This document shows, in pieces, positions 1,525 through 37,788 of a DNA stretch of 39,459 nucleotides. The notes under the pieces were generated by a model, which was given only the letters and a program-made list of their open reading frames with translations, was not told where the DNA came from and ran no database searches. A program made the translations under genes and the position numbers. The stretch's first letter is position 1; each line of letters starts with the position of its first letter. The DNA is from a virus: positions 1 to 39,459 of IMG/VR virus record IMGVR_UViG_3300027659_000082; one strand, 5' to 3'.

Positions 1525-1703
1525 GACACAACCTCTTTCTTTTTAGTGACCCAAAGTTTATTCCAAAGTTTTTCCATAGCCTTATCATACGCTAGGTCAA
1601 TCCTAGTCCTAGCGTCATGATATTTTAACCAAGCCTTATCCCTAGCTAGCTCCCTGTTGAACGCCAAGTCCTCAGTAGCTTTTTGATATTCTTCCTGTGT
1701 CAT
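1521..1703 (-). CDS. Hypothetical 60-aa charged helical protein
   Basis: Not recognised. The sequence is almost wholly alpha-helical in character, rich in Lys, Glu, Asp, Ala and Trp (LAYDKAMEKLWNKLW), and ends in a basic KKKEVVS tail; a short coiled coil or amphipathic helix is likely. The ATG at 1703 overlaps the upstream stop by one base (TAATG), with GGGGAGG 8 nt before it. That ribosome-binding site lies inside the last codons of the upstream gene. The stop overlaps the next start as ATGA, so it is embedded in a translationally coupled chain. Confidence 0.7.
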   Translation of the reverse strand: MTQEEYQKATEDLAFNRELARDKAWLKYHDARTRIDLAYDKAMEKLWNKLWVTKKKEVVS

Positions 1704-1731
1704 TACATATCCTCCCCTGTTTGGTTTCTAA
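1703..1731. repeat. 29-bp direct repeat, copy 1 (3' end of the 83-aa gene)
   Basis: These 29 bases are identical to 1956-1984. They encode the shared C-terminus and also carry the GGGGAGG ribosome-binding site for the next gene. The repeat marks the duplicated unit (about 253 bp) and could allow further copy-number change by recombination. Confidence 0.9.
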
Positions 1732-1954
1732 TGAAAGCGTCTACCTTGTGTTCTAGAAGTCTCAGGTCGTGAAGCATGTCGTTACATTCCCTTATTTCTT
1801 CGTGTAACGCACACTTCTGTGCTATAGAGTAAGGCTTATCTAAACCATTCTTAAAGCGTCTTTTGTTATCCTCAGTTACTATTAGCTTAGTTGTAATAGC
1901 ACTTCTGATTGCGTTAATATCTCTCATGTTGAATTCTAAAGTTACAGTTGTCAT
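1703..1954 (-). CDS. Hypothetical 83-aa protein, downstream copy of a tandem paralogue pair
   Basis: Unknown function. It matches the next gene upstream (1956-2213) end to end: both begin MTTV.LE.NM..IN.IR.AIT.KLI..ED.KR and both end NQTGEDM, with similar spacing throughout. The frame is open to 1996, but the ATG at 1954 is chosen because it aligns with the paralogue's start and has GGGGAGG 8 nt upstream. The proteins look helical, with heptad-like Leu/Ile spacing near the C-terminus (LRLLEHKVDAFI), suggesting oligomerising helices. The pair must have arisen by tandem duplication. Confidence 0.75.
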   Translation of the reverse strand: MTTVTLEFNMRDINAIRSAITTKLIVTEDNKRRFKNGLDKPYSIAQKCALHEEIRECNDMLHDLRLLEHKVDAFIRNQTGEDM

Positions 1955-1955
1955 G

Positions 1956-1984
1956 TTACATATCCTCCCCTGTTTGGTTTCTAA
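1956..1984. repeat. 29-bp direct repeat, copy 2 (3' end of the 85-aa gene)
   Basis: Identical to 1703-1731. Its conservation is higher than in the rest of the two genes, consistent with selection for both the C-terminal residues and the downstream ribosome-binding site, or with recent gene conversion. Confidence 0.9.
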
Positions 1985-2213
1985 CTGCTGCATCAATCTT
2001 GTTTTCTAAAACTCTAAGTTCGCTTAAAGCAATATTAATCTGTCTTAAGTCTTCACGAACCATCGCACACTCTTCACCCTTTGGCAAAAGTGACGCAGCT
2101 ATAAAATTCTTATAGCCTCGTTTTTTGTCTTCATTAGCTATCAACTTAACTGTGATAGCGTTTCTAATGTTGTTGATTTCGATCATGTTCAATTCTAAGT
2201 TAACTGTTGTCAT
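1956..2213 (-). CDS. Hypothetical 85-aa protein, upstream copy of a tandem paralogue pair
   Basis: First gene of the small operon. Its ATG at 2213 is preceded by TTGAGGGAG, the same leader box found before the first genes of the other units (741 and 10194). It is the paralogue of the 83-aa protein directly downstream, sharing the start, the AIT.KLI..ED.KR core and the last seven residues. The middle differs most (around residues 38-50), so the copies have diverged while keeping their ends. Both are small, charged, mainly helical proteins; I recognise no family. Confidence 0.78.
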   Translation of the reverse strand: MTTVNLELNMIEINNIRNAITVKLIANEDKKRGYKNFIAASLLPKGEECAMVREDLRQINIALSELRVLENKIDAAVRNQTGEDM

Positions 2214-2410: not shown

Positions 2411-2941
2411 TTATTGCAATAAATCTGGATGATTTGGAAAGTTTCCATCATTCAGGGATTCAGGTTGCACATTCAGCTGGTCCATTGGGATACTGATACC
2501 CCACATGCCTGCCTGTTGTATTAGCTCTTGGTCTGATAGCGTCTGATATGTGACAGTAGATTCAGACTTCTTAGGTGCCTCAAGTCCTAATATCTTAATC
2601 TGTCTGTCCATGATAGATAACACAGACTGAAGTGATTCTCTGTTACCAGCTGTTGCCTCCTTATAGTATACCTTTAGTAGCTCATCAAACCTAGCTAGTG
2701 TTAGGCTAAGTGCTTTCTCAGCTACAACACTGCCCTCCTTCATTAGACTCTTGAACTCCCTCTCTACATACGAATAGGCAGCCTGCCTTGTCACACCCAT
2801 AGCACGCCCTATCTCCGCATATGTCATCCCCTGTTTTCGCATCCCTATCGCTTCTAACCTCCTCTCCTTTTTGATTATCTTGTGCTGTGACATTTTGTTC
2901 TTCAGGCCGGAATTGTCTTCCCCTGTGTGATCTGATAACAT
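2411..2941 (-). CDS. terS: Terminase small subunit (HTH-containing)
   Basis: The small subunit recognises phage DNA and feeds it to the large subunit. The 176-aa product has a helix-turn-helix at about residues 40-62 (YAEIGRAMGVTRQAAYSYVE), then helices (about 70-110) and a linker with ILGLEAPKK, typical of this family. The ATG at 2941 has TAGGAGAAG ideally spaced upstream; an internal ATG at 2893 would remove 16 residues. With the 2941 start the gene overlaps the upstream MazZ-like frame by 224 nt in a different frame. It is the last gene of the replication operon, and a terminator separates it from the large subunit about 1.7 kb away, an unusual split. Family call good, start good. Confidence 0.8.
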   Translation of the reverse strand: MLSDHTGEDNSGLKNKMSQHKIIKKERRLEAIGMRKQGMTYAEIGRAMGVTRQAAYSYVEREFKSLMKEGSVVAEKALSLTLARFDELLKVYYKEATAGNRESLQSVLSIMDRQIKILGLEAPKKSESTVTYQTLSDQELIQQAGMWGISIPMDQLNVQPESLNDGNFPNHPDLLQ

Positions 2942-3287
2942 AATCTTCTCCTAGTTCAGCGGGTAAATTGTTTAGTAAAACTTCTTCCTCAGTCCACATT
3001 GCTGCCATCACATTCCAGCAACAAGCAGCTAAGTGATCCTCATCACGATAGCCCATTGCGTATTTAATTATGTGGCGTAGAGCACTATTAATGTAGCGTG
3101 CAATTGGTTGACCCTTCTCCCAATTGCGTGCACCGTATTTCATAGCACCCAACTCTGTGTGTATGGCAATCCTCTCTAATGCTGAGAAAGGTAGCAAGTC
3201 GTACCTGCCCTTAGCAAACTGAGAGTCACGCACAGAACCACTTGGGAATGTCTCACGCTCACCACTGTCTTTTACTTCGTAGTTCAT
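2718..3287 (-). CDS. dATP/dGTP diphosphohydrolase-like protein (DUF5664/MazZ type) with overprinted C-terminal tail
   Basis: Residues about 20-105 match, by eye, the domain annotated as the N-terminal part of phage dATP/dGTP diphosphohydrolases (DUF5664): RYDLLPFSALERIA, a GA.KYG.RNW motif, then RH..KY..GYRDEDHLA..CWN. The family shares a helical nucleotide-pyrophosphohydrolase character and some members (MazZ) supply precursors for 2-aminoadenine DNA. The start ATG overlaps the polymerase stop (ATGA). From about residue 115 the frame runs through the first 224 nt of the small terminase gene in another frame. The tail there is Cys- and Gly-rich (CYGCDKAGC) and looks like by-product sequence, so the working enzyme is probably the first 110 or so residues. 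No PurZ homologue is present in the window, so a modified-base role is unproven; nucleotide-pool cleaning is the safer reading. Confidence 0.6.
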   Translation of the reverse strand: MNYEVKDSGERETFPSGSVRDSQFAKGRYDLLPFSALERIAIHTELGAMKYGARNWEKGQPIARYINSALRHIIKYAMGYRDEDHLAACCWNVMAAMWTEEEVLLNNLPAELGEDYVIRSHRGRQFRPEEQNVTAQDNQKGEEVRSDRDAKTGDDICGDRACYGCDKAGCLFVCREGVQESNEGGQCCS

Positions 3288-5407
3288 GTCTTACTCCATG
3301 TGTCAGATACAACCCACTCAACCTCTGATCTTACAAAACCATTAAGCACTTTGTCCATGCTAGTATTCATTAAAGATTCTATTACTCTACCATGCTTGTC
3401 AGGTTCATCAGCAGGTACCTCAACAACAAGCTCATCATGAACAAATGCAACTACCGGGTACAACTGCGATACGGCGTACAATGCAAGCTTCGCACCATCT
3501 GAAGCCAAACCCTGGAATTGTGTGTTGCACGACTCTGTGTATTCAGCAGCACCACGCACACGCCCTGTGAGTGTAACCACAGTGTTACCAAATATTCTGC
3601 GTCTTAGTGAAGGGCTACCTCGCTGGGATCTTAGTGGCATCTCTAGTGAGCTATCCTTGTTTATCTTAGATAGTGCGTTCCACACATGCCGCCTGAAAGC
3701 ACCTGTGTAACCTGTGCCCTTCCTATTCCTCATGTTGCCTGACACTACATCTTGTATTGGGCTAAATGCGTACACTCCAGCTGATCTCAGGTTGAACGCA
3801 TCACACACCTCATCAGCACCACACTGTAGATTGAAACACAATGCACCAAGCACATCCTGAAACAAATACCTAGACAACTCTGGGTACACCTCTGTCACTA
3901 GTTTGTTCTTCCACTCCTTAGCCTCATCCAGGGTCATAGTCACACCGTATGACGCTGATGCGTACTCCATTAGAGACTTTGCCCCAAGACCACCGGGCAC
4001 ACCAAAGTTTACTGCCTTAGCTGACTGTCTAAACTTCTTAAACTTTTCAGGATCTGATTTCTTAAGACTCATGAACTCTGCAAAGGGTATATTTGATAGG
4101 CTGGACGCTGTGTATGCGTGCGGATCAATACCTTCATAGAATGTTTTTGCTAGCTGTGAAAATCCAAACCTAGTCTTGCATATCGCACCCAAGCACCTAA
4201 GCTCTACTGCGTTGTAGTCAGCTATTATAAACTTAGTGCCCTTGCTAGGTACGAATAGCTTCCTGAACCACTGTGCCTTTGGCATCTGTTGCAGGTTAGG
4301 TTTGCTACAACTTGTCCTTCCTGTGCGGACAAGTGCTTGGTACCTAGGGTTCACACGGTCTGTCTTTATCTGCTCAACAAAGTTTAGTAGCTTCGCCTTT
4401 GTAATCATGTCTTGCCAATTCTGAATGAATGGGTGATTGTACTCTGACCAGTATTCAGCACTGGTTGTTATCTCACCAGACTTATCTGTCTTAGGTATAG
4501 ACTTATCTTTAAGCTTTAACTCTGTAGCAATGTTCAACAAGTACACACGAAGTGCTTTGCTATCTATCGCTGGAACGCCTGTTGTGTAATTGTACATCAG
4601 CTTGCCTGCAAACTTCTTGCGTACATCTCTCTTGAACAACGCTGGATAATTACTATCTAACCAATTAACGATATCGTTTATCTGTAGTTTTATTTCAACA
4701 CCAATGTTTTGCTGTGCTTCAGTATCAACCTTGATACCAACTCGGCTACAGTCTGTGAGTGCAATTGAACCTTTAACTTGTGTGTGATGTGTCAGTGGTC
4801 CGTGCATATCTATCAAACAATTGTTGTGGTTGGATATGTGCACAGCAACTGGGTGAAGTTCGTTGAATAGCTCCCTAGTAACAGCAGAATCCTTAAGAGC
4901 ATAAGCAAAGTATTCATCCGGTATATTCTCCATAGGCTGTCCTAGAAACTTAGACCACTCAGTCTGTAAAGTTTTGTCCAGCTTAACTGACAAGTAGTGC
5001 TCGGACAGGTCACTAAGGCTTTTAGGCCTTAGTGGACCGTCCTCCTCACCATTAGCTAACCTAACTAGAAAGTCTAAAATCATTGTATCCCAAACTTTGT
5101 TCTGTTCGACCATTGCCTTCCACATCTGAATTTCTTCAACATACTTCAACGCAGCGAACACAACATGGTAATCAAACGCAACATTGTGAGCAACTATATT
5201 GCAACCGCTCAGGTATATCATCTCAACCCAAGCACCAACCATATCTGGTGGCACAATGTAGCTACGCTTGTTGTCACTGAATGTGAGCACGATTAATTCT
5301 GGAATCATCCCAGGCTCAATCATTGTAGTCTCTGTGTCGAAACCAAAAGCACCATCACACTTAAGGTGCTCGCCGTTCCACAAATTTGTCTTTAATAGTA
5401 TTCCCAT
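3284..5407 (-). CDS. polA: Family A DNA polymerase with 3'-5' exonuclease
   Basis: Replicative polymerase, 707 aa, with no 5'-3' exonuclease domain. Proofreading motifs: D24 and E26 in FDTET, D79 in NVAFDYH, D173 in YALKDSAVT. Polymerase motifs: A at 395-403 (ADYNAVELR), B at about 460-475 (RQSAKAVNFGVPGGLG) and C at 657-659 (HDE). Motif B is odd: the tyrosine of the canonical NFGxxYG is replaced, giving NFGVPGG, a form I recall from other phage polymerases. An extra segment of about 60-70 residues lies between motifs B and C. The ATG at 5407 overlaps the upstream nuclease gene by 47 nt; the stop overlaps the MazZ-like start. It acts with the primase-helicase and SSB-like protein of the same operon. 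Confidence 0.95.
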   Translation of the reverse strand: MGILLKTNLWNGEHLKCDGAFGFDTETTMIEPGMIPELIVLTFSDNKRSYIVPPDMVGAWVEMIYLSGCNIVAHNVAFDYHVVFAALKYVEEIQMWKAMVEQNKVWDTMILDFLVRLANGEEDGPLRPKSLSDLSEHYLSVKLDKTLQTEWSKFLGQPMENIPDEYFAYALKDSAVTRELFNELHPVAVHISNHNNCLIDMHGPLTHHTQVKGSIALTDCSRVGIKVDTEAQQNIGVEIKLQINDIVNWLDSNYPALFKRDVRKKFAGKLMYNYTTGVPAIDSKALRVYLLNIATELKLKDKSIPKTDKSGEITTSAEYWSEYNHPFIQNWQDMITKAKLLNFVEQIKTDRVNPRYQALVRTGRTSCSKPNLQQMPKAQWFRKLFVPSKGTKFIIADYNAVELRCLGAICKTRFGFSQLAKTFYEGIDPHAYTASSLSNIPFAEFMSLKKSDPEKFKKFRQSAKAVNFGVPGGLGAKSLMEYASASYGVTMTLDEAKEWKNKLVTEVYPELSRYLFQDVLGALCFNLQCGADEVCDAFNLRSAGVYAFSPIQDVVSGNMRNRKGTGYTGAFRRHVWNALSKINKDSSLEMPLRSQRGSPSLRRRIFGNTVVTLTGRVRGAAEYTESCNTQFQGLASDGAKLALYAVSQLYPVVAFVHDELVVEVPADEPDKHGRVIESLMNTSMDKVLNGFVRSEVEWVVSDTWSKT

Positions 5408-7450: not shown

Positions 7451-7832
7451 CCTCTATATCCCCCATATCAAGTTGATAACCTGAAATTTTATTGCATTCT
7501 CTAGACAAGTGCTCTGCTGTTAAAGACAGTGTGTGGGCAACATCTGCGATTGCTGCCCAGTACGCTGCCGCATTAACTAAAAACAAATCAGATGTTTTAT
7601 CTATCTGTTTTCCATCTTTAACGAACTGTGCCATTAGCAGGTCAAAAGCATCTAGGCTGTCCACTTGCACCTTCCTTATACGGTTACCCCAGTGGGTGAA
7701 CGCATACGAAAAGACTCCAAATGCTTCTACTTTGTCTGAACTACTTTTAGCCATGTTCTTTTGTAGAGATCGCCCGTCAGAGCGATCTCCCTCCATATAA
7801 GTTAGTAACTTAGAAAGGCGTTTGATATCCAC
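7386..7832 (-). CDS. Hypothetical 148-aa replication-operon protein
   Basis: Not recognised; predicted soluble and helical, with a block of alanines (LVNAAAYWAAIADVAHTL) that resembles packed helices. The GTG at 7832 is chosen because AGGGG lies 5 nt upstream. ATG codons at 7796 and 7754 are alternatives without a good site, and a perfect 8-bp hairpin (7766-7789) falls between them. It overlaps the SSB-like gene by 23 nt and the primase-helicase by 65 nt. Placed between those two genes it may be a helicase loader or fork accessory factor, but this is position only. Confidence 0.65.
   Translation of the reverse strand: MDIKRLSKLLTYMEGDRSDGRSLQKNMAKSSSDKVEAFGVFSYAFTHWGNRIRKVQVDSLDAFDLLMAQFVKDGKQIDKTSDLFLVNAAAYWAAIADVAHTLSLTAEHLSRECNKISGYQLDMGDIEDVFNQQRKWNDKHLGEGTKPS
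7766..7789. other. Perfect 8-bp hairpin near a gene start
   Basis: GAGATCGC (7766-7773) pairs with GCGATCTC (7782-7789) around an 8-nt loop. It lies inside the 148-aa gene just after the candidate start at 7796. It could modulate translation, or be a protein-binding palindrome; it has no U-tract and is not a terminator. Confidence 0.5.
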
Positions 7833-8403
7833 TTTTTCCCCTAGCTACTTTTGCAGTTTGCTTCGTGGGATTGATCGCAGGGCTTTTCTTAGGCGTAGCA
7901 ACAACCACCGTTTCGTCTGACTCATCTTCCTGAACATCTTTAGATTCCTCCTTAGTTAATTTGTGCTGCTCATCCCTGAACAACTTTGCAAATATAGACA
8001 TAGTTTCCGCAGCTAGTGGCTTCGCATTATTAGTGGATGGGAACATACCCAACCGTTCTCGTACAACACCATTTTGATCTTCTGCGTGTTTACAAGATAT
8101 GCGAACCTGAACACCTAACAAACCTGACGACTCTTCGTGCTCCATACCAAGTCCTTTGATATCGTCCTGGGTGTACCCAAGTGAGCGTATGTTTTTAACT
8201 GTGTAAGGCAAGGCCTTGTCAGTCAACCACATCAGAATCTTTTTACGCACGCCTTCACAATCTACATTTTGTTTTTCAGCGTCCTTACCATCACGAAGGA
8301 CAACATTAAACACAACACAAGGTGTACCCTTATCGCCTAGTGCGGTAAGGTCATGCCCTTCAATCTGGGCATTATAATTTCCAACAGGCAACATCTCAGA
8401 CAT
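7810..8403 (-). CDS. Probable single-stranded-DNA-binding protein
   Basis: 197 aa. The first about 125 residues look like an OB-fold SSB-type domain found in phage recombination operons: M.PVGNYNAQIEG, a strand-rich KGTPCVVFNVVLRDG, then GLLGVQVRISC and NGVVRERLGMFP. An acidic linker (EESKDVQEDESDET) and a basic tail ending GYQTPF follow, a plan reminiscent of SSB proteins with an acidic segment and an aromatic tip that contact partners. It sits directly between the RecT-like annealase (2-nt gap) and the helicase region. The fold assignment rests on pattern and context, so a different DUF669-like recombination protein is possible. Confidence 0.55.
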   Translation of the reverse strand: MSEMLPVGNYNAQIEGHDLTALGDKGTPCVVFNVVLRDGKDAEKQNVDCEGVRKKILMWLTDKALPYTVKNIRSLGYTQDDIKGLGMEHEESSGLLGVQVRISCKHAEDQNGVVRERLGMFPSTNNAKPLAAETMSIFAKLFRDEQHKLTKEESKDVQEDESDETVVVATPKKSPAINPTKQTAKVARGKSGYQTPF

Positions 8404-14431: not shown

Positions 14432-14786
14432 GTTCGCTCCATTTCCCTAGCGGGCACTTTTCAGTTATCCAGCTAGCTTTGATTTTTAAGAAACATCCAC
14501 AAACTCCGCATTTATCAAACTTTTTAAATTCGCAGGTATTGCAAATAGTTAGCCTGTCCGCTTGCACTTCCAATGGCACTCGAGTGCAACCTGAAAAGCT
14601 CCATTTAGCTACAGAAGAGATTAGAGAGCTAGCTTGTTCCAACATAGGTGGAACTTGTATTGGCTCGTCATTATCCCAAGCAGCCCTTACCCTTGTGTTG
14701 TGGTGGTAATGCCAACAAAGTTGGCACTGTGTGTTATCCCAAGTGCTATTAGGAATTACATTATTACATGTGCAAGGTCTTGGCAT
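14403..14786 (-). CDS. Cysteine-rich zinc-ribbon protein (DUF6171-like)
   Basis: 127 aa. Two Cys clusters: an N-terminal CTCNN...CQLCWHYHH set and a C-terminal RLTICNTCEFKKFDKCGVCGCFLKIK...CPLGKW (about residues 77-116). The latter matches, by eye, a small zinc-ribbon family found after tail-fibre genes in many phages. The function of that family is not known; metal binding is likely. The ATG at 14786 overlaps the adhesin stop as TAATG, with AGGAG 10 nt upstream. Confidence 0.7.
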   Translation of the reverse strand: MPRPCTCNNVIPNSTWDNTQCQLCWHYHHNTRVRAAWDNDEPIQVPPMLEQASSLISSVAKWSFSGCTRVPLEVQADRLTICNTCEFKKFDKCGVCGCFLKIKASWITEKCPLGKWSEHDTSGSTPN

Positions 14787-17700
14787 TAGCTACACGCTCC
14801 TACTGTAACTGTGGGGGCTGTTCCAGCACCACCATAAGCAACAGACCACAGACCAGTTAAAGAAGCTGTAACTGTTGCTCCTGATTCCGCACTATAGAAA
14901 TCTGAATAACCTTCAGAAATTGTGTACCTCGATTGCATATTGTTGTAGCCGATTTGGATTGTACCCCCAACTTTTTCCCAATATCCAGAACTAAAATACA
15001 TATTGGTTGGAGAAGATCCAGACTTATAACTGTAGGTTCCATTTACCGCTGCATTATCTGCACCAGCTACGCAGTAAGGATCAACCAAAGTAACTACACA
15101 TTGTCCCTCTGTAATTGTTGGAACGGTTCCGGTGCCATTTCCGCCGTATGAATTTTGCCATCCTGTTAATGGAAGACTTCCATAGTCACCCCCAGTGTAA
15201 TATCCTTCACCATTTGAAGTATAAAAAAACCAAGTTCCATCACCATTATAATTTATTGTTGTACCAGAGCTTCCTACTTTTACATATTGATCGCCCGAAA
15301 CATAATTATAAGTTCCGTTATACGCATCATTACCAGCACCCGAAACACAGTAAGTGCCAGTTGGTGTAGGAGTGGCATAAGTAAACAATGTGTTAGCTGC
15401 ATTAGTACCACCTGAAGTTGTAACTAACACACTTGCAGTTCCAGCAGTTTTAGCAGGTGTAGTTGCAGTGATACTCGTAGAACTTACCACAGTAACATTG
15501 GTGGCAGCAGTGCCACCTATTGTTACTGCACTAGCTCCGGTTAAATTAGTACCTGTTATAGTAACGCTAGTTCCACCCGCAGTAGAACCACTAGTAGGTG
15601 AAATACTAGTCACAGTTGGACTAGGTGTTGGTGTTGGAGTAGGTGTTGGTGTAGGTGTTACACAATACCTGTGCCATGCGTAGCTGTTCCAATACCATGC
15701 ACGACCTGCAAAGCTGTAGATGTCGTTGGTTGCGTGTGTCGTTGGGAAAAAGAATGGGCCGTTGTTTGTGTTTGCAGGTGCTAAACATGGGCTAAGTGTT
15801 GATGTTGGAGTTGGACTAGGTGTGGGTGTAGGAGTTGGTGTAGGTGTTGGGGTTGGTGTTGGTGTTGGGGTTGGTGTTGGGGTTGGTGTTGGTGTTGGTG
15901 TAGAGCTATACACTGCACCCCAAGTAATTGTAGTTTCAAACTCTCCATTAATAGGGTGTGAGTCGTAGTATGTCTGAGTAGTGTTTGGGGTTATCAAACG
16001 ATCCCCAAAAAGGAACCCATATCCTCCAGGAGCACCTTGAGTCCAAGCATTATGCATTACACTATATTGATCCCCTTCGTTTTTCATTACGACAACAGTT
16101 GGGTATGTGGTTGAGTTATAACCTAACTCCGAATATGCCAAAGTAACTGGGGAGCCGTATGAACTAGAAGAATTGTAAAATGCATCTACACTTCTGGTTA
16201 CATTAAGTTGCGGGTTGCCCCACGGTCTTATTGTAACCGTAGCACTAATAGGCACGCATAGTGGAGATGGTTGGGTATAGGTGAATAAGAAGTTGTAAAG
16301 TGCACTAGTGCCATTTGGTGTGGTAACTACCATAGCTTTAGCACCAACAGTTCCAGCAGGTGTAGTTGCCGTAATGGTGGTTGAGTTAACCACGGTAACA
16401 TTGGTTGCAGGATTGCCACCGATGGTGACAGCAGTTGCACCAGTAAAGTTAGTACCCGTGATGGTTATGCTGGTGCCACCTGCGATATTACCGCTATTCG
16501 GTGTAACATAACCTACACCGGGTGGTGGGGGTGGACACACCCCTTCTATCAATCCAAATTCTGCAAGTGGTGGTATGTTGTTGTTGTAAGGTGCGTTAGA
16601 AGTTTGGATTAAGCAACTAGAAGTAGCGTTGCTTGTCCGCATCCATTGATAGTTATTAAGCCCTGTTGCACCATATCCAATTATTTGTCTAAAAGGGTCG
16701 TTGACATTATTTACATTGGTAGTCCAGTAACCATTAGGGTAGTTTGTGCACCCTGCCTGACCAATATTTACAGTTGTAAATGTATATGTAGTATTGCCAT
16801 CTTTACAGTAGGCTGTGCTAAAATTTAAAGAAGTTGCAGTCACTTGTGCACTGCCACTTACATAGTTAGTTCGAGTGGTGGTAATGGTAGCAGTGGAAGA
16901 AGTATTAACTGCTACTCCGGTTACTGTTACCAAACCAGTGTTGGATATCGATACGGTGCCACTAGCGGTGGCGGTTCCACCATAGGTGAAGGCTCCGTTG
17001 TAGTTACTTATCTGCACGGTAAATCCTGCACCGTTTCGAGATACACTTCCAAAAGTTGGTGTGTTTGCTGAATTGTTTACCACGATTAAACCGTAATAGG
17101 TTGATCCATCCACCCCATATCCGGTTAGGTTTGGGGTTCGGAGTAACCTTGCACCAGATGCCACTTGCCAAAAGGGATTTGTTCCTACTGTAGCAGGTGC
17201 ATTTCCTAAGAATCTAACTGCGTTTAATAAATTACAATTCCCAAACGAGTATGGTCCAAGATTTGTTAAGCTAGCTGGCATTGTAATGGTAGTCAAAGCA
17301 GTACAGTCAGTAAAGCCCCATTGTGCAATTGAACTTACACTATTACCAAGGGTTACGCTAGTTAATGCATGATTAGTTGAGAATGCACTTACCCCAATTG
17401 TAGTAACTCCGTTGCCAATTGTTACGCTAGTTAATGAATAACAATATGCAAATGCTTCCATCCCAATACTAGTGACGCTATTGGGAATGGTAACGCTAAT
17501 CAAACTGCTGCAACTCCGAAACGCATTAGGGCCAATTGTTGTAAGTGATTCAGGAAAATCAGTAATATCGTAAAAATCTGAATTAATGCGTCTTAAACTT
17601 GAACAAGATGAAAATGCATTATTTCCTATAACGGAAACAGTACCGGGTATAGTTATACTGACAAGGTTGGATCTGCCGTAAAAAGCATCTTCACCTATTT

Positions 17701-17827
17701 CTTGTACCATAAGACCGCCAAGGGTACTTGGAATATCTAGCTCGGTTGCGCCTGTATCATTCCAGCCAGTTATAATACAGCCGCCATTATTATTCGCTGT
17801 CCAATGAAAATTTCCTGTTATTGGCAT
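14786..17827 (-). CDS. Modular adhesin: BspA-type LRR, Ig/TIG domains, Pro-Thr linkers, C-terminal repeats
   Basis: 1013 aa, probably virion-exposed and host-binding. Order: residues about 15-225, leucine-rich repeats of the BspA/LRR_5 type ([18 protein letters not shown] and variants, each about 23 residues); about 250-330, an Ig-like part; about 335-430, a Cys-containing part; about 440-517, an IPT/TIG domain ([19 protein letters not shown]); about 520-640, an insert; about 641-674, a (PT)n linker; about 680-720, a small Trp/Tyr-rich module; about 722-736, a second (PT)n; about 738-817, a second TIG domain nearly identical to the first; about 825-1013, two related Cys-containing modules ([14 protein letters not shown] and [14 protein letters not shown]). 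No signal peptide, as expected for a virion part. ATG at 17827 with AAGGATATTTATT upstream. TIG, LRR_5 and TP linkers are typical of surface proteins, so transfer from a bacterial adhesin is possible. Confidence 0.8.
15618..15658. repeat. Second, shorter (Pro-Thr)n tandem repeat
   Basis: Same 6-bp repeat type as 15804-15903, about 14 residues, between the Trp/Tyr-rich module and the second TIG domain. Having two copies of the linker suggests that the module between them was inserted or duplicated by repeat recombination. Confidence 0.88.
15804..15903. repeat. Tandem repeat encoding a long (Pro-Thr)n linker
   Basis: About 100 bp of 6-bp units (GGTGTT/GGGGTT/GGTGTA variants on the plus strand) encode alternating Pro and Thr on the minus strand, about 32 residues. 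Gain or loss of units keeps the frame, so linker length can vary by slippage. Confidence 0.9.
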
Positions 17828-18978: not shown

Positions 18979-20159
18979 TAGTAGGAACCTCCATCAATTT
19001 CTAAACTAGCTATTGCGCCACTTCCAGAAGCGCCCGGTTGCCACCTGTTATTAAGAGTGTTCCAAATAAGTGCTTGACCGTCTGAAGCACCATTACGCCC
19101 TATTAAGAGTTCCAAGGTATTCATATTGTACTCCAGTGGGTAAACTGGTGTCAACACTTCTAAGTTGTCCTGTGGTCGCCATTCTAGTGCGGTTGCATCC
19201 CAACCTAAAACTTGCCTGTCTTGTGCACCAGCCTGTGCTATCCTTAATACACTTCCTGAAGGTGTGTACGACAGTGGTAGTACGGGGTTTAATGTTAGAG
19301 AACCACCAGAACCACCAGAGCCACCTGTGTAATCTTCTATGTTCTGAAAGGTGCCGCCATCACTCCACCAGCTACCGTTTGGTGCAATTTCACCATCGTA
19401 AATGTACCCTGCAAGATTGCTTGATGTGGCTGGACCAAAGCCCACCTTCACATGAATAGTTTTTCCGCTAGCGTTATAAACACAAATTTGTTTAATCACT
19501 GTCGCTATCGGGGGTGCTGATGTAGGTAGCTTGTATATTGATGTGTTAGCAGTACCTGCAATAACCTTCTGAGTTAGTGTTTCTGTAATTCCCCAAGTTG
19601 TCTGGCCTGTTATACCGTGCGACATGGTGACATGCACCTTGTCCGAACTGTTTAGAGTCTGTGTGCCTGTTGGTGCTGTTACTATGGATATTTCATCCAT
19701 ATTTTGATTGTCTAAAACTATTACAGATGGGTAGCTAAGTAGAAACGCCTCCGAGAATCTCCACACCTTCTCTGATGGTATTGCAATGTCTATTAAACAG
19801 GTATCAGTGTAGTTATCGGGGTGGTCTTTCTGACCAGCCCCTTCACCAGCTAATAATGTAAGATCTAAATAGGTGCGAATTCTAATGCTGTAAACTTGTG
19901 CGTCTATTGCATTGTTATAAAGATAAATTTCTCGTACTACACGAACTCCCTCAGGTACAGTGTCTATAAGTGTGTTGACATTGTTCTGCTGCGGGTGGCT
20001 ATAGAAAACACGCTCGTAGTTCTCCTCACCACCAGGACCTGGATACAAGTTAGAGTCCTTTACAAATTCCATCAAATGGGTGGTAGCCGTGACATTGCAG
20101 GCAACACCCTGAGATTTAACATACAGCCTAGACTTGTTACTTATTATTAGTGTTTTCAT
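18978..20159 (-). CDS. Tail-fibre-like protein (393 aa)
   Basis: The N-terminal about 275 residues form a beta-rich domain of unknown family. After a Gly-Ser hinge (TGGSGGSGGSL) the C-terminal part repeats a small module also found in the collagen-like fibre: VLGWDATALEWRPQDNLEVL and ALIWNTLNNRWQPG, each a W-containing strand pair preceded by PLSY/PLEY-type segments. ATG at 20159 overlaps the 1039-aa stop as ATGA. A short fibre or fibre adaptor is likely. No enzymatic motif was seen. Confidence 0.66.
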   Translation of the reverse strand: MKTLIISNKSRLYVKSQGVACNVTATTHLMEFVKDSNLYPGPGGEENYERVFYSHPQQNNVNTLIDTVPEGVRVVREIYLYNNAIDAQVYSIRIRTYLDLTLLAGEGAGQKDHPDNYTDTCLIDIAIPSEKVWRFSEAFLLSYPSVIVLDNQNMDEISIVTAPTGTQTLNSSDKVHVTMSHGITGQTTWGITETLTQKVIAGTANTSIYKLPTSAPPIATVIKQICVYNASGKTIHVKVGFGPATSSNLAGYIYDGEIAPNGSWWSDGGTFQNIEDYTGGSGGSGGSLTLNPVLPLSYTPSGSVLRIAQAGAQDRQVLGWDATALEWRPQDNLEVLTPVYPLEYNMNTLELLIGRNGASDGQALIWNTLNNRWQPGASGSGAIASLEIDGGSY

Positions 20160-23100
20160 ATTCCAAAAAAGCTCCTTCTTTGAGAGGCGTTGTTAGATAT
20201 AGGCCTGAGGCTTAGTTGGTTGCTACTGTTCAAATAAAACACACCTAGTGCCCCTAGATCAAGTGATAAATGAGGGTGTGTGGATGTTCCAATGTTCTTC
20301 AAAGCTAAACCCGTTCCTGAGGTAGTTTTTATGGCTAATGTCGGGTCTTGTGGTGTTCCTGTGTTGAACAAACCACCGTCTATGTCCGATAGGGCTGGGT
20401 TAGGGGTTGTGCCCGCTGGACCTTGTGCACCTGTGCTACCTGTTGGGCCTGTTGGACCGCGCAGGTTTCTAGGTGTTCCCCAAGGATCTGTTGCACTTGA
20501 TGTCTTTGGACCAAACAAATAAGTACCAATATACTCGCCTATGGTGGTATTAAGTTCTGTAATGTGGAAGTCGCCTATATCACCTAGTGTTGCACTAGGG
20601 TCAGGCGGTATAGATGCGTTAGACGATACTGTTGCACTGTGAATTACTTGCCCGCCTTGGAGTCCGGGTACCCCTTGTAAACCTTGATTTCCTTGAACCC
20701 CTTGTGGTCCGTCACTGCCTTTTAATTCAATGTAGCTAGATGTAGGCCAAGCACCTGCTGCTTTAGGCCCGTACCACCGTATGGTTGTCACACCGTTGAC
20801 TATTAGGAAGTCACCGTTGTTACCAATGTAGTTGTAGTTGGTGTACGGCGGCATGGTGGACGGATCGCCAGAGTGGTCTACTTTTCGGATAAGGTTTTGT
20901 GTTGAATTGCCTTGTGCACCCGTCATTCCTGTTGGACCTTGCACTCCCTGCACGCCTTGAATTCCAGCGGGTCCAGTAAGACCAGTAGGCCCAACTAAAC
21001 TCACAGGTTCTTGAATAGATGTCCACTTGTTGTTTAGACATCCTGAACACTTAGGTCCGTATAGATAATGCCCTGTGGTGTCTATGTAGAAGTCACCGGA
21101 TCTTCCTAAACCTTGCTCTGGTACACCGTCACCCCAAAGTATTGTAGGCCTTGAGTGGTCGTATGGTGTATCCGCAACCCATGCAACACCATCGTACATG
21201 AGCACATTCCCAGACTGTGCATCAACACCGAATGAAAGAACCTTATCTGTTGAATTCCAAAACAGTGGTGTATTTGCTGTGATGTCAGCAGCAGGTAAGT
21301 CTTTAATTTCCCAACCTAATGTAGTAGCATTCCACAAAATTGCTTGATCTTCTTTTGAACCATCGCCTATCTTTATTGTAGATGTTGCAGAATCCCAATT
21401 TAAAGGCAGAACCGCATTAATGGAGCTTACTGTTGTTGAATTTACCCAATTAGTTCCGTCAAAGGATAGAACATCCCCTGTTTCAATTGTTGTGATTACA
21501 ACATCAGATAAGGACTCTAATGTTATCTCACCGTTCACCCACTCCGTGCCTGAGTATTTTAAAACTTCCCCAGAAACTGCATTGCTAATGGTCACATCTG
21601 CTAAACCGTCTAGAAGCTCGTTAGGTGCTTCACCACTCCACGACTTATTTACGCTGTTCCAAGTTAGTACATCACCTGTGGTTGTTCCGTCAGCTAGAGA
21701 GACTGTAAGTGTGGTTGACTCGTTAGGAAAAACACCTGTGGTTTCTGATGTCATAGTAATAGGAAGTGTGCCTACAATGTTTGCTGTCTCGCCTTGCTCA
21801 CCCTTAGCTACTAGAAGATCCCAGTTAAATGTTGTGTTAGGTGTGATGTTTAAAGTATCATCAACCTCGCAGATATACAGAGATCCCAAGTAAGATACCA
21901 CAGCACCTTTAGAGTAGTTTACCGTAGAATCCCACTCGTAGTTCCACTCCATGCCTGGGGTGCCGTCAGCACCCGCAGGTCCAGCTATACCATTTTGACC
22001 GTCATTACCATCAGCCCCTATTAGAGACACACCAGATCCCCAATCTGTGCCCGATTTTGGCCCAAATAGTATTGGTGCACCTGTTCCAGCCATCTGCATA
22101 TAAAAGTCGCCATCTGACCCTGTTTCAGAGGCTGGTGCACCTGCCCCAGAGTATATTGATTTAGCTGCTACGCTGGTACCTGCTACCCACGCCGTACCGT
22201 CATATTTTAGAACATTACCTGTTGCTGCATTTGGCACATTAAAGCTAAGAGTTGTAGTAGGTTCATCCCACACAATTGGCGATGTTGCATAAATGGTAGC
22301 CGTGCCTGTTGTGCTGGTTCCCTTTGATGCTACAAGCTCCCAATCTGATGCGTTTGTAGGCACATTAGTTGTAGATTTTATAGACACATAACTAGAACCT
22401 GAGTGCTGTACCACCGAGTGAATAGGGTAAGTGGTGCCTGATGTCCATGTTCCCTTCCATTCTAAACCCGCACTACCTGCATCCCCTTTTGCACCTTGTG
22501 CACCCGCAGAACCCGCTGGGCCTAGAAGTGATACACCTGCACCCCAACCTTGTGAAGTGGTAAAACCACCGTACAACCTACCTGCGACTAGATCTATGTA
22601 GAAATCCCCCTCCCTACGCTCTGATGGGCTAGGGAACATGCTAGTTGGAACTTCATTACCGTAGAAAATTTTAGAACCTGCGGGTCCATCAGCACCAGCT
22701 ACACCCTGAATTCCCTGTGCCCCTTGTGCTCCGGTTTCCCCTTTAAGATCTATTGCACCACCCCAACTGACAACACCGCTTGTAGTGACCCTGGGGCCGT
22801 ATAATAAGCGAGTTGTCGTATTAAGGAAGTAATCACCGTCTATTGCAGTAGTTGTTGAAATTGGGCCTGTTGTGCCTGACAGAAAGGTAGCCCCACGGAC
22901 TCCCTGAATACCTTGAATTCCTTGTGCCCCTATTGAGCCTATTGCGCCAGTTGCACCCGCTGGGCCTGTCGGACCAGAGGCTAAAACTCTAGTCCACTCA
23001 CCTACACCACCTGCATATTTCCAAATGTACAGAAAGCTATCGGATGTGTCATACCAGAACGATTTTGCCGTAGTAGGGTTAGCTGGTGCAGGCGGAACCT

Positions 23101-23275
23101 CATCTTGAATTATATAAGTAGCAGATCCTCCTAGTGAGGATATATTAATACCGCCTAGCGTAAAACCATCACCTACAAAAAGCTCTTTTGTGTCGTTTGC
23201 AAACGCTGGCTCACCTGTCAGGAAAGATTGTGTCTGAATTGCTGACTTAGGCCCGTTCTTAAATTGAATTAGCAT
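20156..23275 (-). CDS. Collagen-like tail fibre protein (1039 aa)
   Basis: The protein alternates Gly-X-Y tracts with globular modules. Collagen-like tracts appear at about residues 97-120, 180-200, 250-270, 425-445, 760-790, 850-875 and 935-960. A module of the form GDFYID...LYGPK...W...SLIG, ending in the next collagen tract, recurs six times (DNA near 22850, 22600, 22100, 21080, 20800, 20560). A second small module (VLKYDGTAWV, VLKYSGTEWV, VLSFDGTNWV, AILWNATTLGW) is repeated between about 340 and 720. The N-terminus (MLIQFKNGPKSAIQTQSFL) looks like a particle-attachment part. Collagen triple helices give long thin trimeric fibres. ATG at 23275 follows the upstream stop by 1 nt. Confidence 0.82.
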   Translation of the reverse strand: MLIQFKNGPKSAIQTQSFLTGEPAFANDTKELFVGDGFTLGGINISSLGGSATYIIQDEVPPAPANPTTAKSFWYDTSDSFLYIWKYAGGVGEWTRVLASGPTGPAGATGAIGSIGAQGIQGIQGVRGATFLSGTTGPISTTTAIDGDYFLNTTTRLLYGPRVTTSGVVSWGGAIDLKGETGAQGAQGIQGVAGADGPAGSKIFYGNEVPTSMFPSPSERREGDFYIDLVAGRLYGGFTTSQGWGAGVSLLGPAGSAGAQGAKGDAGSAGLEWKGTWTSGTTYPIHSVVQHSGSSYVSIKSTTNVPTNASDWELVASKGTSTTGTATIYATSPIVWDEPTTTLSFNVPNAATGNVLKYDGTAWVAGTSVAAKSIYSGAGAPASETGSDGDFYMQMAGTGAPILFGPKSGTDWGSGVSLIGADGNDGQNGIAGPAGADGTPGMEWNYEWDSTVNYSKGAVVSYLGSLYICEVDDTLNITPNTTFNWDLLVAKGEQGETANIVGTLPITMTSETTGVFPNESTTLTVSLADGTTTGDVLTWNSVNKSWSGEAPNELLDGLADVTISNAVSGEVLKYSGTEWVNGEITLESLSDVVITTIETGDVLSFDGTNWVNSTTVSSINAVLPLNWDSATSTIKIGDGSKEDQAILWNATTLGWEIKDLPAADITANTPLFWNSTDKVLSFGVDAQSGNVLMYDGVAWVADTPYDHSRPTILWGDGVPEQGLGRSGDFYIDTTGHYLYGPKCSGCLNNKWTSIQEPVSLVGPTGLTGPAGIQGVQGVQGPTGMTGAQGNSTQNLIRKVDHSGDPSTMPPYTNYNYIGNNGDFLIVNGVTTIRWYGPKAAGAWPTSSYIELKGSDGPQGVQGNQGLQGVPGLQGGQVIHSATVSSNASIPPDPSATLGDIGDFHITELNTTIGEYIGTYLFGPKTSSATDPWGTPRNLRGPTGPTGSTGAQGPAGTTPNPALSDIDGGLFNTGTPQDPTLAIKTTSGTGLALKNIGTSTHPHLSLDLGALGVFYLNSSNQLSLRPISNNASQRRSFFGI

Positions 23276-34447: not shown

Positions 34448-34975
34448 TTAACTCCTTGGGTTGAAAAATTCGTTCGCTGTTGATTGTCTCATACCGAAGT
34501 AGCGGTCCATCTCGCTAGAGAATAGACTTACAGTTCTGCTGACTTGTGCTTGTTGTGGTGTTGAGGCTTGTTCATTTTTTTCAATTTCAAATACTCGCTC
34601 GCCTGTGCGTAACAACTCTAACACTGCTTCTGATTCTTTAGATCGTGATGTCATAGCGTCTAAGTCAGCGGCACCGTAACCACGCCTAGAGATTAGAAGT
34701 CCGTACGCTATATCACAACAGATTCTTTTAAGGTGACCCTTAGAGTCTGGTGTCATAGCTACTAAATCTACAAGCTCGTACCTGCCACCTGCAAGTATTG
34801 CACTATTGATCATACCTGAAGCATCAGACAGGGCGGTCTGTACGACCAGCCCTGCTGTGCTGTTTCCAGCTAGTAGTTCGACATCCGTAGCTCGCTGGTC
34901 TGTGTCTAACACAAGGTCAGCAATTCTACGGAGGTCGTAACGCATCAGAAGATCAGATACTGTTGCGTGTGCCAT
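34448..34975 (-). CDS. Head-tail connector (DUF1320-like)
   Basis: 175 aa. The first about 110 residues have the outline of the gp36-like/DUF1320 adaptor family: an N-terminal DLLMRYDLRRIADLVLD helix, then ALSDASGMINSAILAGGRYEL and KRICCDIAYGLLISRRGYG. Such adaptors form a ring below the portal. The remaining residues are charged and polar. ATG at 34975 overlaps the capsid stop as TAATG, consistent with head-tail order. Confidence 0.66.
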   Translation of the reverse strand: MAHATVSDLLMRYDLRRIADLVLDTDQRATDVELLAGNSTAGLVVQTALSDASGMINSAILAGGRYELVDLVAMTPDSKGHLKRICCDIAYGLLISRRGYGAADLDAMTSRSKESEAVLELLRTGERVFEIEKNEQASTPQQAQVSRTVSLFSSEMDRYFGMRQSTANEFFNPRS

Positions 34976-36141
34976 TACGCACTCGTAATGCCAGTTACGA
35001 CATTTTTGAGTTTGAATGCGGTAATAGGAGCAACAATTTCAACGCCGTAATCTTCTACAATACGGGCATTAATACGGCGGTTATCTGGATCGTCTTTTTG
35101 TTCTACAGTCATTTCTTCGTATGCGAAGAGATGCACAGTAGAGAATGAAGGCGAACCTTCAAAACCAACCAGATCACCTGGGCGTGCAAGAACCCACATG
35201 TCGCCTGAAGGAACAACATAGTCGCTTACTCTGGTTGCACCCTTCTTGTTGGATACTTTTACAACATCTTCGATGATGATGTCGTAACCGTACAACTTGT
35301 CAGGCAAACCATATTTACCATTCATGGAGTCTGAATCTCCACGAATTTGGGCAAGTGCTACTGGCGACTCTTTAAGGTAGGTGTGGAGTTCCTTAGATCG
35401 TGCAATAGCATCAGCCGTTTCAGGGTTGATGATAATACACATCTCTTTAGGTCCACAAGCACCTAAGGTTGCCTTGTTAATTCTTCGAGAAATCGCATTG
35501 AACGCTTTCTTGATAACAGGTCCGTTAGATGTGCCTGTGTTAATGTCACCGGAGTCACCTGCATCAAGTCGGACACCACCTGTGATCACATTGTTTGCTA
35601 AGGAGCAATCTACTGAGTCAATACTATCAGTACCACCCAATTGAATACCCCTGTCAGGACTACCGCTAGTAGTAACCGCACTTGTCGTAGATGCGGACTC
35701 GTACAGCTTTTTCCAAACTTTGACAACACGGGCGGTCATCGCTTGTTGTGCGTTAATCGCACTATAGCTAGCTACAATCTTCCAATCTGCTTGGTCAACT
35801 GCTTTATAGCCCAGCCTGAATGGGAACACATACCGTTGGGTATTAAAGTTTAACCATTCAAACTTTTCATTATTCCACTCCCCGTGTGGAGCGTCATTAC
35901 CATCGTGCCATACATGATCTTCAAGCTTATCGTATGTAACTCTAGCAGCTTGTTCCGCATTGAGTTTCAAGTAATAACCTGAAGACTTTTTGACAGGGGT
36001 AATTGTAATATATTTGTTCAGCCCAAAGTCTTTAGGGTTGCGACTGAACGACACTACAAGTTGACCAGTAGCGTCAAAACTTGGAATGTATGTGTTTGTT
36101 CCACTTGGAAACTGAGCATTTTGCGATACAAAATCTGCCAT
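34975..36141 (-). CDS. Major capsid protein
   Basis: 388 aa. Placed between the protease/decoration genes and the connector, and with the right length, so almost surely the major capsid subunit of HK97-like heads. Seen: a long N-terminal part, a central helix around INAQQAMTARVVKVWKKLYES (about 128-148, spine-helix-like), GPKEMCIIINPETADAIARS and, near the end, GSPSFSTVHLFAYEEMTVE, and a terminal GVEIVAPITAF strand. No lengthy scaffold domain precedes it, since that lies in the gene before. ATG at 36141. Confidence 0.75.
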   Translation of the reverse strand: MADFVSQNAQFPSGTNTYIPSFDATGQLVVSFSRNPKDFGLNKYITITPVKKSSGYYLKLNAEQAARVTYDKLEDHVWHDGNDAPHGEWNNEKFEWLNFNTQRYVFPFRLGYKAVDQADWKIVASYSAINAQQAMTARVVKVWKKLYESASTTSAVTTSGSPDRGIQLGGTDSIDSVDCSLANNVITGGVRLDAGDSGDINTGTSNGPVIKKAFNAISRRINKATLGACGPKEMCIIINPETADAIARSKELHTYLKESPVALAQIRGDSDSMNGKYGLPDKLYGYDIIIEDVVKVSNKKGATRVSDYVVPSGDMWVLARPGDLVGFEGSPSFSTVHLFAYEEMTVEQKDDPDNRRINARIVEDYGVEIVAPITAFKLKNVVTGITSA

Positions 36142-36639: not shown

Positions 36640-37788
36640 TTAAAGTACTTTTTCAGCATTGATTTTACCAAGAGCTTCTTGGTAGCTAATGCCGTTTTCA
36701 GTTGCAAAATTAATAGCTTCGTTCACTTCGTCCTTAGTGCGGCCACGCACCCCACCAGAACGAGATTCTTGGTAGTAAGAGGCCCGTGCACCAATAGGTG
36801 CTTTTTGGTACCTTTTACGGATGATCTGAAGATGTGCCCTATAGGTCTTCTCAGGTAGAGATTGGACCAAGGATAGCTCTTCACCACGGTCTAACATGAA
36901 ACCTTCAGCTTCCAACTCAATAAGATCTTTCTCACGCTCTGCACGCTGGAATTTAATCTTGATGTTTTGGATCTCCTTGTGGAGAAGTTGGTTTTCCTGT
37001 TCTACCCTGGATAGTTTAATCCTGTCGTATTTTCTGTTACCACGACTAGATTGAATAGGTTGTTCTTCCTCCATAGATTCTTCTGGCATAGGTTCTTCAC
37101 CCATACCTTCATCCATAGGAGGTCCACCCATGCTAGGGTCTTCCATACCTTCTTCAGGCATAGGTGCTTCTTCACCGGGCATTCCCTCAGGCGGCATACC
37201 ACCTTCCTCAGGTGGTGCTTCACCACCCTGCTGTGAAAGTTGTGTAAGGAATTGCCAAACATCCGTTTGTTGGAGTCCAGCTAAAACACCATCAATAATA
37301 CCTTGTTGATCATTCATTCCTATAGTCCTTTGATATTTTTTAACCCCGCCTTTAGAAAGTCGGAGTAAGCCTAAGTCTCGTTCAGGAGTAGTTGCACCGA
37401 GCAAACTAATCGGGTCAATCTTGTAATCACTTAGCCAAAGTTCTATTGATCTCCTTGGGAAACCACGAACCTTGTCAGCAGCATGTTTGAAAAACTTGAA
37501 GGTAGCTGTGATACACTTCCTACCTGTCTTGAAGAACGGCTCTACCTTTAGGTTGGTAGCGTATCCAACAATCTCAGGTTGCTCACCTTCAGGTGCGTCA
37601 TCTTTGGTGTGCCCAATGACAAGTGGTATCTCGTCACCAGTATTACCCATGCGCTTATTGTTTACTTTAACTATCTCAGATAGTTTCTTCTGGTCGAGCC
37701 GAATCACCACATTCCCTTTGCCATCCTTAAGCTCATGCTCGTCCAGAATAGGAACATGGTGTTTAACAATCATGTCGTTATCGTCCAT
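36640..37788 (-). CDS. Prohead protease/scaffold fusion (382 aa)
   Basis: The N-terminal about 150 residues resemble Mu-type prohead proteases: H60 in VIGHTKDDAP, RRSIEL with S114, and DPISLLGATTPE. A disordered stretch rich in Glu, Pro, Met and Gly (about 188-255) leads to a helical, coiled-coil scaffold part (about 260-340, LSRVEQENQLLHKEIQN). It would guide shell assembly and be cut away before packaging. The ATG at 37788 overlaps the 539-aa stop as TAATG. Good agreement in order with Mu-type and HK97-type clusters. Confidence 0.66.
   Translation of the reverse strand: MDDNDMIVKHHVPILDEHELKDGKGNVVIRLDQKKLSEIVKVNNKRMGNTGDEIPLVIGHTKDDAPEGEQPEIVGYATNLKVEPFFKTGRKCITATFKFFKHAADKVRGFPRRSIELWLSDYKIDPISLLGATTPERDLGLLRLSKGGVKKYQRTIGMNDQQGIIDGVLAGLQQTDVWQFLTQLSQQGGEAPPEEGGMPPEGMPGEEAPMPEEGMEDPSMGGPPMDEGMGEEPMPEESMEEEQPIQSSRGNRKYDRIKLSRVEQENQLLHKEIQNIKIKFQRAEREKDLIELEAEGFMLDRGEELSLVQSLPEKTYRAHLQIIRKRYQKAPIGARASYYQESRSGGVRGRTKDEVNEAINFATENGISYQEALGKINAEKVL

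Follow-up and report, generated by a model that had tools for sequence, protein, structure and literature searches.

The hydrolase and terminase-like genes

The window, which is the whole 39,459 nt stretch of viral DNA analysed here, carries on its minus strand a hydrolase gene and a small-terminase-like (TerS) gene whose open reading frames share 224 nt, out of phase. The hydrolase frame (2718 to 3287, minus strand) encodes 189 aa, including a C-terminal extension, and contains the DUF5664 domain (PF18909), in agreement with the earlier note. Upstream of it is a family A DNA polymerase gene (3284 to 5407, minus strand; DNA_pol_A, 1.5e-34; exonuclease domain, 1.9e-10), the end of which overlaps the start of the hydrolase by 4 nt (ATGA).

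The match of the hydrolase to PF18909 has an E value of 8.8e-20 and a score of 71 bits, passing the curated cut-off of 27. It also matches phrog_18716 (E 1.6e-37) and phrog_801 (dATP/dGTP pyrophosphohydrolase; E 2e-18). An alignment of 27 DUF5664 sequences, picked by the author from relatives found by similarity to the window and including the window protein, has 29 invariant columns, and the window protein keeps the invariant core residues. On these profile and alignment matches the 189 aa product is a member of the DUF5664 dNTP pyrophosphohydrolase family, with its activity predicted. The domain core is placed at residues 21 to 101 (2985 to 3227, minus strand) from the Pfam stretch and the AlphaFold model. 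Pfam ends the domain at residue 101 and PHROG 18716 ends it at 103; in the AlphaFold model the block means are 81 to 97 over residues 31 to 110, and residues 118 to 189 have pLDDT below 50. The expectation that the domain ends near residue 110 therefore holds, at approximately 110 to 117, and the tail beyond it is predicted to be disordered.

The term 'MazZ-like', previously applied to this protein, is loose, since the protein belongs to DUF5664/PF18909, and strictly the name MazZ covers MazZ-1, or DUF550. No MazZ was found in a profile search of PDB sequences at E values up to 1. In a Foldseek search with the hydrolase model, disordered tail included, MazG-type chains such as 7ody appeared only at E >1, which is not evidence. 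No relative of PurZ/PurA (PF00709) was found in any of seven records, these being the window and six relatives, some of them fragments; the control was positive in 14 of 14 genomes. Fold searches of the PDB with the hydrolase and TerS models gave no match with E <0.001, and profile searches of PDB sequences with the two proteins gave nothing judged relevant at E values up to 1.

The TerS-like gene (2411 to 2941, minus strand) encodes a helix-turn-helix (HTH) protein of 176 aa that matches HTH_23 (4.3e-7) over residues 24 to 61. This HTH (2759 to 2872, minus strand), which is overprinted by the hydrolase tail, has AlphaFold block means of 85 to 90 pLDDT over residues 21 to 60. The phrog_309 TerS profile matches six of six homologues, the best at 9.1e-6, and matches the window protein weakly (0.0017). 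In the relative L137, the one in which this was tested by profile, a large terminase gene (phrog_9, E 1.5e-29; TerL_ATPase, 2.2e-6) starts at 6624 on the same strand as the TerS ATG at 4001, approximately 2.6 kb downstream. The HTH, the weak but consistent phrog_309 matches and the downstream TerL in L137 together make it likely, if not proven, that the gene is a small terminase. The best profile for the protein is phrog_645, labelled 'Rnase E', and the RefSeq records of Gordonia phage Jace and Streptomyces phage mu1/6 also call the matching HTH protein 'Rnase E'. This phrog_645 label looks like a misannotation.

Downstream of TerS, the genes at 1956 to 2213 and 1703 to 1996 (both minus strand) form a tandem pair of paralogues with 53% identity over 85 residues, and both end in NQTGEDM. 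Elsewhere in the window, a 1013 aa frame (14786 to 17827, minus strand) has long Pro-Thr runs and, presumably, BspA-like leucine-rich repeats, and it is possible that this is a surface or fibre protein. Several collagen-like Gly-x-y stretches were seen by eye in a 1039 aa frame (20156 to 23275, minus strand). Three further frames (34975 to 36141, 37788 to 39407 and 7810 to 8403, minus strand), two of them in the structural region, have no PHROG match at E 0.001.

The overlap in related contigs

Searches with the hydrolase and TerS identified 26 viral contigs with this TerS, and the overlapping pair is present in all 26. The contigs fall into six groups. In group A (the window and L001 to L008) and group B (L009 to L013) the stop is at TerS codon 74 and the overlap is 224 nt. 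In group C (L031 to L036) it is at codon 27, with an overlap of 83 nt if the second of two in-frame ATGs is taken as the TerS start, as was done here, or 89 nt from the first. The stop is at codon 35 in group D (L059 to L061, L148 and L149; 107 nt), at codon 42 in group E (L062; 128 nt) and at codon 36 in group F (L068; 110 nt). Groups A and B are related to one another, as are D and E, and the lineages are therefore not fully independent. Two more viral scans added no new lineage, and a scan of genome contigs gave two 33-residue matches only.

The earlier note had named two observations that would speak against its reading, that homologues all stop near residue 110 or that a base error in this assembly accounts for the open frame, and neither is borne out. 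None of the 26 TerS-linked contigs has a hydrolase stop near residue 110; all run on. The frame is exactly 189 aa in 13 of the 26 (L001 to L013), of which L001 has the same gene sequence as the window and L002 to L013 have different ones, so that an assembly error is ruled out. Since no TerS-linked lineage stops near residue 110, the overlap is older than the lineage of the window. The proposed loss of a stop in this lineage is partly correct, in that groups A and B lack the stops at codons 27 to 42 that the other lineages have.

The Shine-Dalgarno sequence of the TerS-like gene, AGGAG (2948 to 2952, minus strand), lies within the hydrolase codons for L-G-E, and the TerS ATG is at 2941. The hydrolase frame does therefore pass through the ribosome-binding site, start and HTH (approximately 2872 to 2759) of TerS, as had been described. 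The Shine-Dalgarno sequence is aligned across all six lineages, being AGGGG in L062. The hydrolase motif beneath it is LGE or LGD in nine of nine scored linked proteins (nine of ten distinct linked sequences were scored for motif and tail length, L148 being left out), and by the same pattern the G is absent from 51 of 51 unlinked proteins; this count and the tail lengths both take the earliest place where the pattern matches, and in some rows that place precedes the motif. A protein is called 'unlinked' here when the TerS scans did not bring up its contig, and the downstream frames were inspected for part of this set. The nine linked proteins have 28 to 75 residues after the motif, and 39 of the 51 distinct unlinked proteins have 22 or fewer (median 15, range 1 to 120), the unlinked lengths being overstated in rows where the pattern matched early.

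Within TerS codons 2 to 16, the second position of the TerS codon is the least variable or tied, and the third is the most variable or tied (counts for positions one to three of 3, 1 and 9 between D and E and 5, 3 and 9 between A and B), for correctly registered pairs only, with L034 (two codons off) and L068 (one inserted codon) excluded. This indicates that TerS starts at the first ATG. The overlap would be shorter if TerS began at codon 17 (MSQHK), but this start is disfavoured by this TerS-type variation and by the conservation of the Shine-Dalgarno sequence and ATG. Folding of the RNA at the TerS start in seven sequences gave no consistent structure (z +1.41 to -1.66), and no conserved hairpin hiding the start was found.

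Stops and constraint along the overlap

A stop in the hydrolase frame arises when a TerS codon ending in T precedes a codon starting with AA, AG or GA. Among the sites that could carry a T, counted in one representative of each of the six groups, T is present at 0 of 41 stop-making sites in TerS codons 2 to 26, against 18 of 55 harmless sites. TerS codons 1 to 26 (2864 to 2941, minus strand) are accordingly free of hydrolase-frame stops in all six lineages. In codons 27 to 73, T is found at 12 of 50 stop-making sites (0 of 18 in A and B, 12 of 32 in C to F) and 44 of 153 harmless sites, and in codons 74 to 140 at 50 of 101 and 59 of 199, respectively. The same region, codons 2 to 26, of 33 other window frames picked by the author as likely genes has T at 83 of 190 stop-making and 192 of 505 harmless sites.

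Compared with these 33 frames, the absence of T from codons 2 to 26 has a Fisher P of 1.3e-9, or 2.2e-7 using groups A, C, D and F only, and for these four groups against their own harmless sites P is 0.0007; the tests treat sites as independent. Codons 15 to 26 alone, a stretch in which many of the unlinked relatives would already have reached their end, have T at 0 of 18 stop-making sites by the author's count. For example, codon 15 (Asn) is AAC where a T would create a stop, and AAT in L062, where it is harmless.

Resampling of the TerS codons places the median first stop at codon 3 to 12. The probability that the frame stays open to at least codon 27, using window and own codon usage respectively, is 0.016 and 0.014 for group A, 0.015 and 0.014 for B, 0.020 and 0.037 for C, 0.011 and 0.018 for D, 0.073 and 0.103 for E, and 0.049 and 0.157 for F. 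Depending on the codon table, the product over A, C, D and F is 1.7e-7 or 1.4e-6, and the combined P for the observed lengths is 4e-6 or 4e-5. For an open frame to codon 74, as in each A or B sequence, P is approximately 0.0003 to 0.001. Among the 33 other window frames, three have the corresponding frame open to codon 27 and none has it open to codon 74; starting from any of their codons, the frequencies are 0.086 and 0.0022. By these comparisons of codons the 224 nt overlap is more than chance.

The proportion of same-residue codons that are changed between A and C to F is 27 to 50% in codons 2 to 26 and 48 to 78% in other regions (38 to 75% for B against C to F). This lower value for A suggests that some sites may be alike by descent and that the groups are not fully independent. 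Even so, T is absent from all 41 stop-making sites of codons 2 to 26 but present at 18 of the 55 harmless ones, and further downstream it occupies 50 of 101 stop-making sites; hydrolase-frame stops in TerS codons 2 to 26 are therefore seemingly selected against. The tail appears to have a minimum length of approximately 24 aa or 70 nt and to be an old, sequence-tolerant extension.

TerS codons 27 to 74 (2718 to 2863, minus strand), ending at the TGA at 2720 to 2718, are the part of the tail specific to groups A and B. Changes across the overlap concentrate at TerS third positions, and it is the TerS frame that is the constrained one. Between the window and L002, L004, L006 and L007, 19 to 37% of same-residue TerS codons 27 to 73 are changed (33 to 37% for the last three), and the TerS residues are 100% identical. 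The tail is thus free to vary in its residues here, and the reduced silent change expected of a tail selected as a protein was not found in codons 27 to 73. The comparison regions in clade A have 6 to 9% (TerS codons 75 to 140), 6 to 14% (hydrolase core) and 9 to 20% (polymerase) changed, and such a local excess of change in the overlap points to recombination of this patch.

Between A and B, the change is 19 to 38% in codons 27 to 73, 26 to 37% in the hydrolase core, 43 to 50% in the polymerase and 58 to 60% in TerS codons 75 to 140. As the divergence of the overlap resembles that of the hydrolase core, it cannot be read as constraint on the tail. Low silent divergence between A and B was therefore rejected as proof of tail function, the core being equally low and the region exceeding its neighbours within clade A. 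Two haplotypes were seen at TerS codons 42 to 66 in clade A, one in the window and L002 and the other in L004, L006 and L007, with many silent differences inside otherwise near-identical sequence (Ser57 as TCG or AGY, Leu66 as CTN or TTG), suggesting recombination in the HTH region.

Beyond codon 26 the hydrolase stop wanders (codons 27, 35, 36, 42 and 74) through mostly TerS-silent changes. Once the frame is open past codon 26, the probability of reaching codon 74, taken from ratios, is approximately 0.02 to 0.05, with six groups examined. For the frame to stay open over the roughly 31 to 48 changes in A and B, with 5 to 9% of available silent changes making a stop, P is approximately 0.01 to 0.18 by the author's arithmetic. 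The further 47 codons to codon 74 in the window phage are probably fortuitous and drifting, with some room for selection on a long tail left by the 0 of 18 stop-making T in A and B, a shortage that is not significant by these estimates. Of the earlier suggestion that the tail does something, what stands is the first 26 or so TerS codons, free of stops in six lineages against expectation; beyond them no amino acid constraint was found.

Explanations for the open frame and known overlaps

TerS follows the hydrolase gene without a gap, its ribosome-binding site lying within the final codons of the hydrolase domain, and the hydrolase frame therefore continues out of phase into TerS. The tail would be made as a disordered, sequence-tolerant extension. 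Ribosomes ending the hydrolase within the first 70 to 80 nt or so would sit on, or re-initiate at, the TerS start, and it is proposed that stops are excluded from this stretch because termination there would disturb initiation. The exclusion would keep the hydrolase and TerS independently initiated. It is quite possible, if short of probable, that the tail is translated in this way, that early stops are excluded for the sake of TerS initiation, and that the last 47 codons are fortuitous; this is the best of the explanations considered. Against it, the window frames open to codon 27 (3 of 33; 0.086) make such an open frame less rare than resampling says. In addition, the review PMC12548453 describes coupling as best at -4 to +3 nt and weaker as the overlap lengthens, and a synthetic study that it cites saw no coupling already at -25 nt. 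An exclusion out to approximately 70 nt therefore exceeds what this explanation needs.

It is nearly as likely that the first 24 or so residues of the tail are needed by the hydrolase as protein, as a sequence-tolerant tail, a linker or a contact, which would keep stops out of codons 2 to 26, though on its own this too is a possibility on the unlikely side. It accounts for the same stop avoidance (0 of 41) and for the 28 to 75 residues past the motif in the nine linked proteins, where 39 of 51 unlinked proteins have 22 or fewer with a median of 15. However, tail residues vary widely among lineages, those imposed by TerS apart, the tail is predicted to be disordered, and shorter tails suffice in most unlinked relatives.

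Chance, the frame being open merely since no stop happens to occur here and elsewhere, is improbable as an account of the whole. The model of PMC3887535, as outlined there, needs no selection for long phase-1 overlaps, three of the 33 window frames are open to codon 27, and for codons 27 to 74 alone chance is acceptable (P approximately 0.02 to 0.05 with six lineages, or 0.01 to 0.18 over the changes). For codons 2 to 26, however, it must recur in lineages strongly diverged at silent sites elsewhere, and is already disfavoured there.

A functional module of the clade in the Cys/Gly-rich end of the tail, for example a metal-binding one, is more doubtful again. Six aligned A and B sequences all keep C157, C162, C165, C170, C174 and C187, and in the A and B representatives codons 27 to 73 are without a stop-making T (0 of 18). 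Yet every one of these Cys residues arises where a TerS codon ends in T and the next codon is for Ala or Val. Four of the six codons concerned (41, 49, 54 and 58) also end in T in group D, where the hydrolase frame has an earlier stop. The Cys content is thus explained as a by-product of the TerS HTH codons, and a zinc site was rejected on this ground. Within clade A, where TerS is identical, nearby tail residues also undergo non-conservative changes; the motif is absent in C to F, and its pLDDT is approximately 35. For annotation this is a warning that a long Cys-rich 'domain' can be the shadow of another gene's codons.

A +1 frameshift at AAR-AAG-GAR (TerS codons 24 to 26), giving a minor hydrolase-TerS fusion with the frame held open to the slip site and free after it, is very improbable: the direction fits and the conserved Lys-Lys-Glu codons stand right at the end of the stop-free zone, stops occurring from codon 27 onwards, but the A-run is broken (AAG AAG) in L010 and L068, the RNA structure is not consistent, and TerS has its own Shine-Dalgarno sequence and start with the codons before the slip site constrained. 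The frameshift to the terminase raised in the earlier note is accordingly unsupported, the Shine-Dalgarno sequence and ATG being conserved, codons 2 to 16 varying in a TerS-like manner and no A-run being conserved. If true, such a fusion would link control of the nucleotide pool to DNA packaging.

Among known systems, the DUF5664 protein of Arthrobacter phage Wayne is reported in PMC12884076 to have measured activity from dATP, dUTP and dGTP to dNMP. The window protein has the same Pfam domain, PF18909 (dATP/dGTP diphosphohydrolase N-terminal), but unlike the Wayne protein its C-terminal extension runs into TerS and its activity is predicted only. DUF5664 is described as a domain separate from DUF550 and sometimes fused to it (PMC8342488, PMC12884076). 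The MazZ of cyanophage S-2L (MazZ-1) has a MazG-HisE fold, and in Z-genome phages MazZ is DUF550, by the same accounts. DUF5664 resembles MazZ as described in PMC8342488 in being a phage nucleotide pyrophosphohydrolase family that yields dNMPs, although the window hydrolase belongs to a different family from the S-2L protein. The portions of the DUF5664 literature found (PMC12884076) make no mention of such an overlap.

Long phase-1 overlaps have been described before, and selection is not required for them to arise, according to the account in PMC3887535. The overlaps described here, of 83, 107, 110, 128 and 224 nt, all equal 2 modulo 3 and are in this like the prokaryotic same-strand phase-1 overlaps reported there, the class excluding the common 1 and 4 nt overlaps. 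They differ from the overlaps of that report in that, over the first 26 downstream codons, stops are fewer than codon resampling predicts, and in that the downstream Shine-Dalgarno sequence lies over a motif conserved in the upstream protein. As in the coat-lysis overlaps of phages MS2 and fr, an upstream phage frame passes through a downstream start. Those overlaps are reported in PMC12548453 to be translationally coupled, at -50 and -38 nt, whereas that of the window is longer, and no RNA structure hiding the start was found in it.

The window overlap is a further case of the long phase-1 overlap already known, and a clean natural one in which the ribosome-binding site and N-terminus of one gene are overprinted on the C-terminus of another. 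Several lineages reveal which positions of an upstream stop are tolerated and which are not, and what is new, as far as these alignments indicate, is this evidence from lineages that an overprinted start is followed by a zone without stops. If the zone is due to translation, it would provide a measurable rule for the distance of termination from a downstream start in phage operons.
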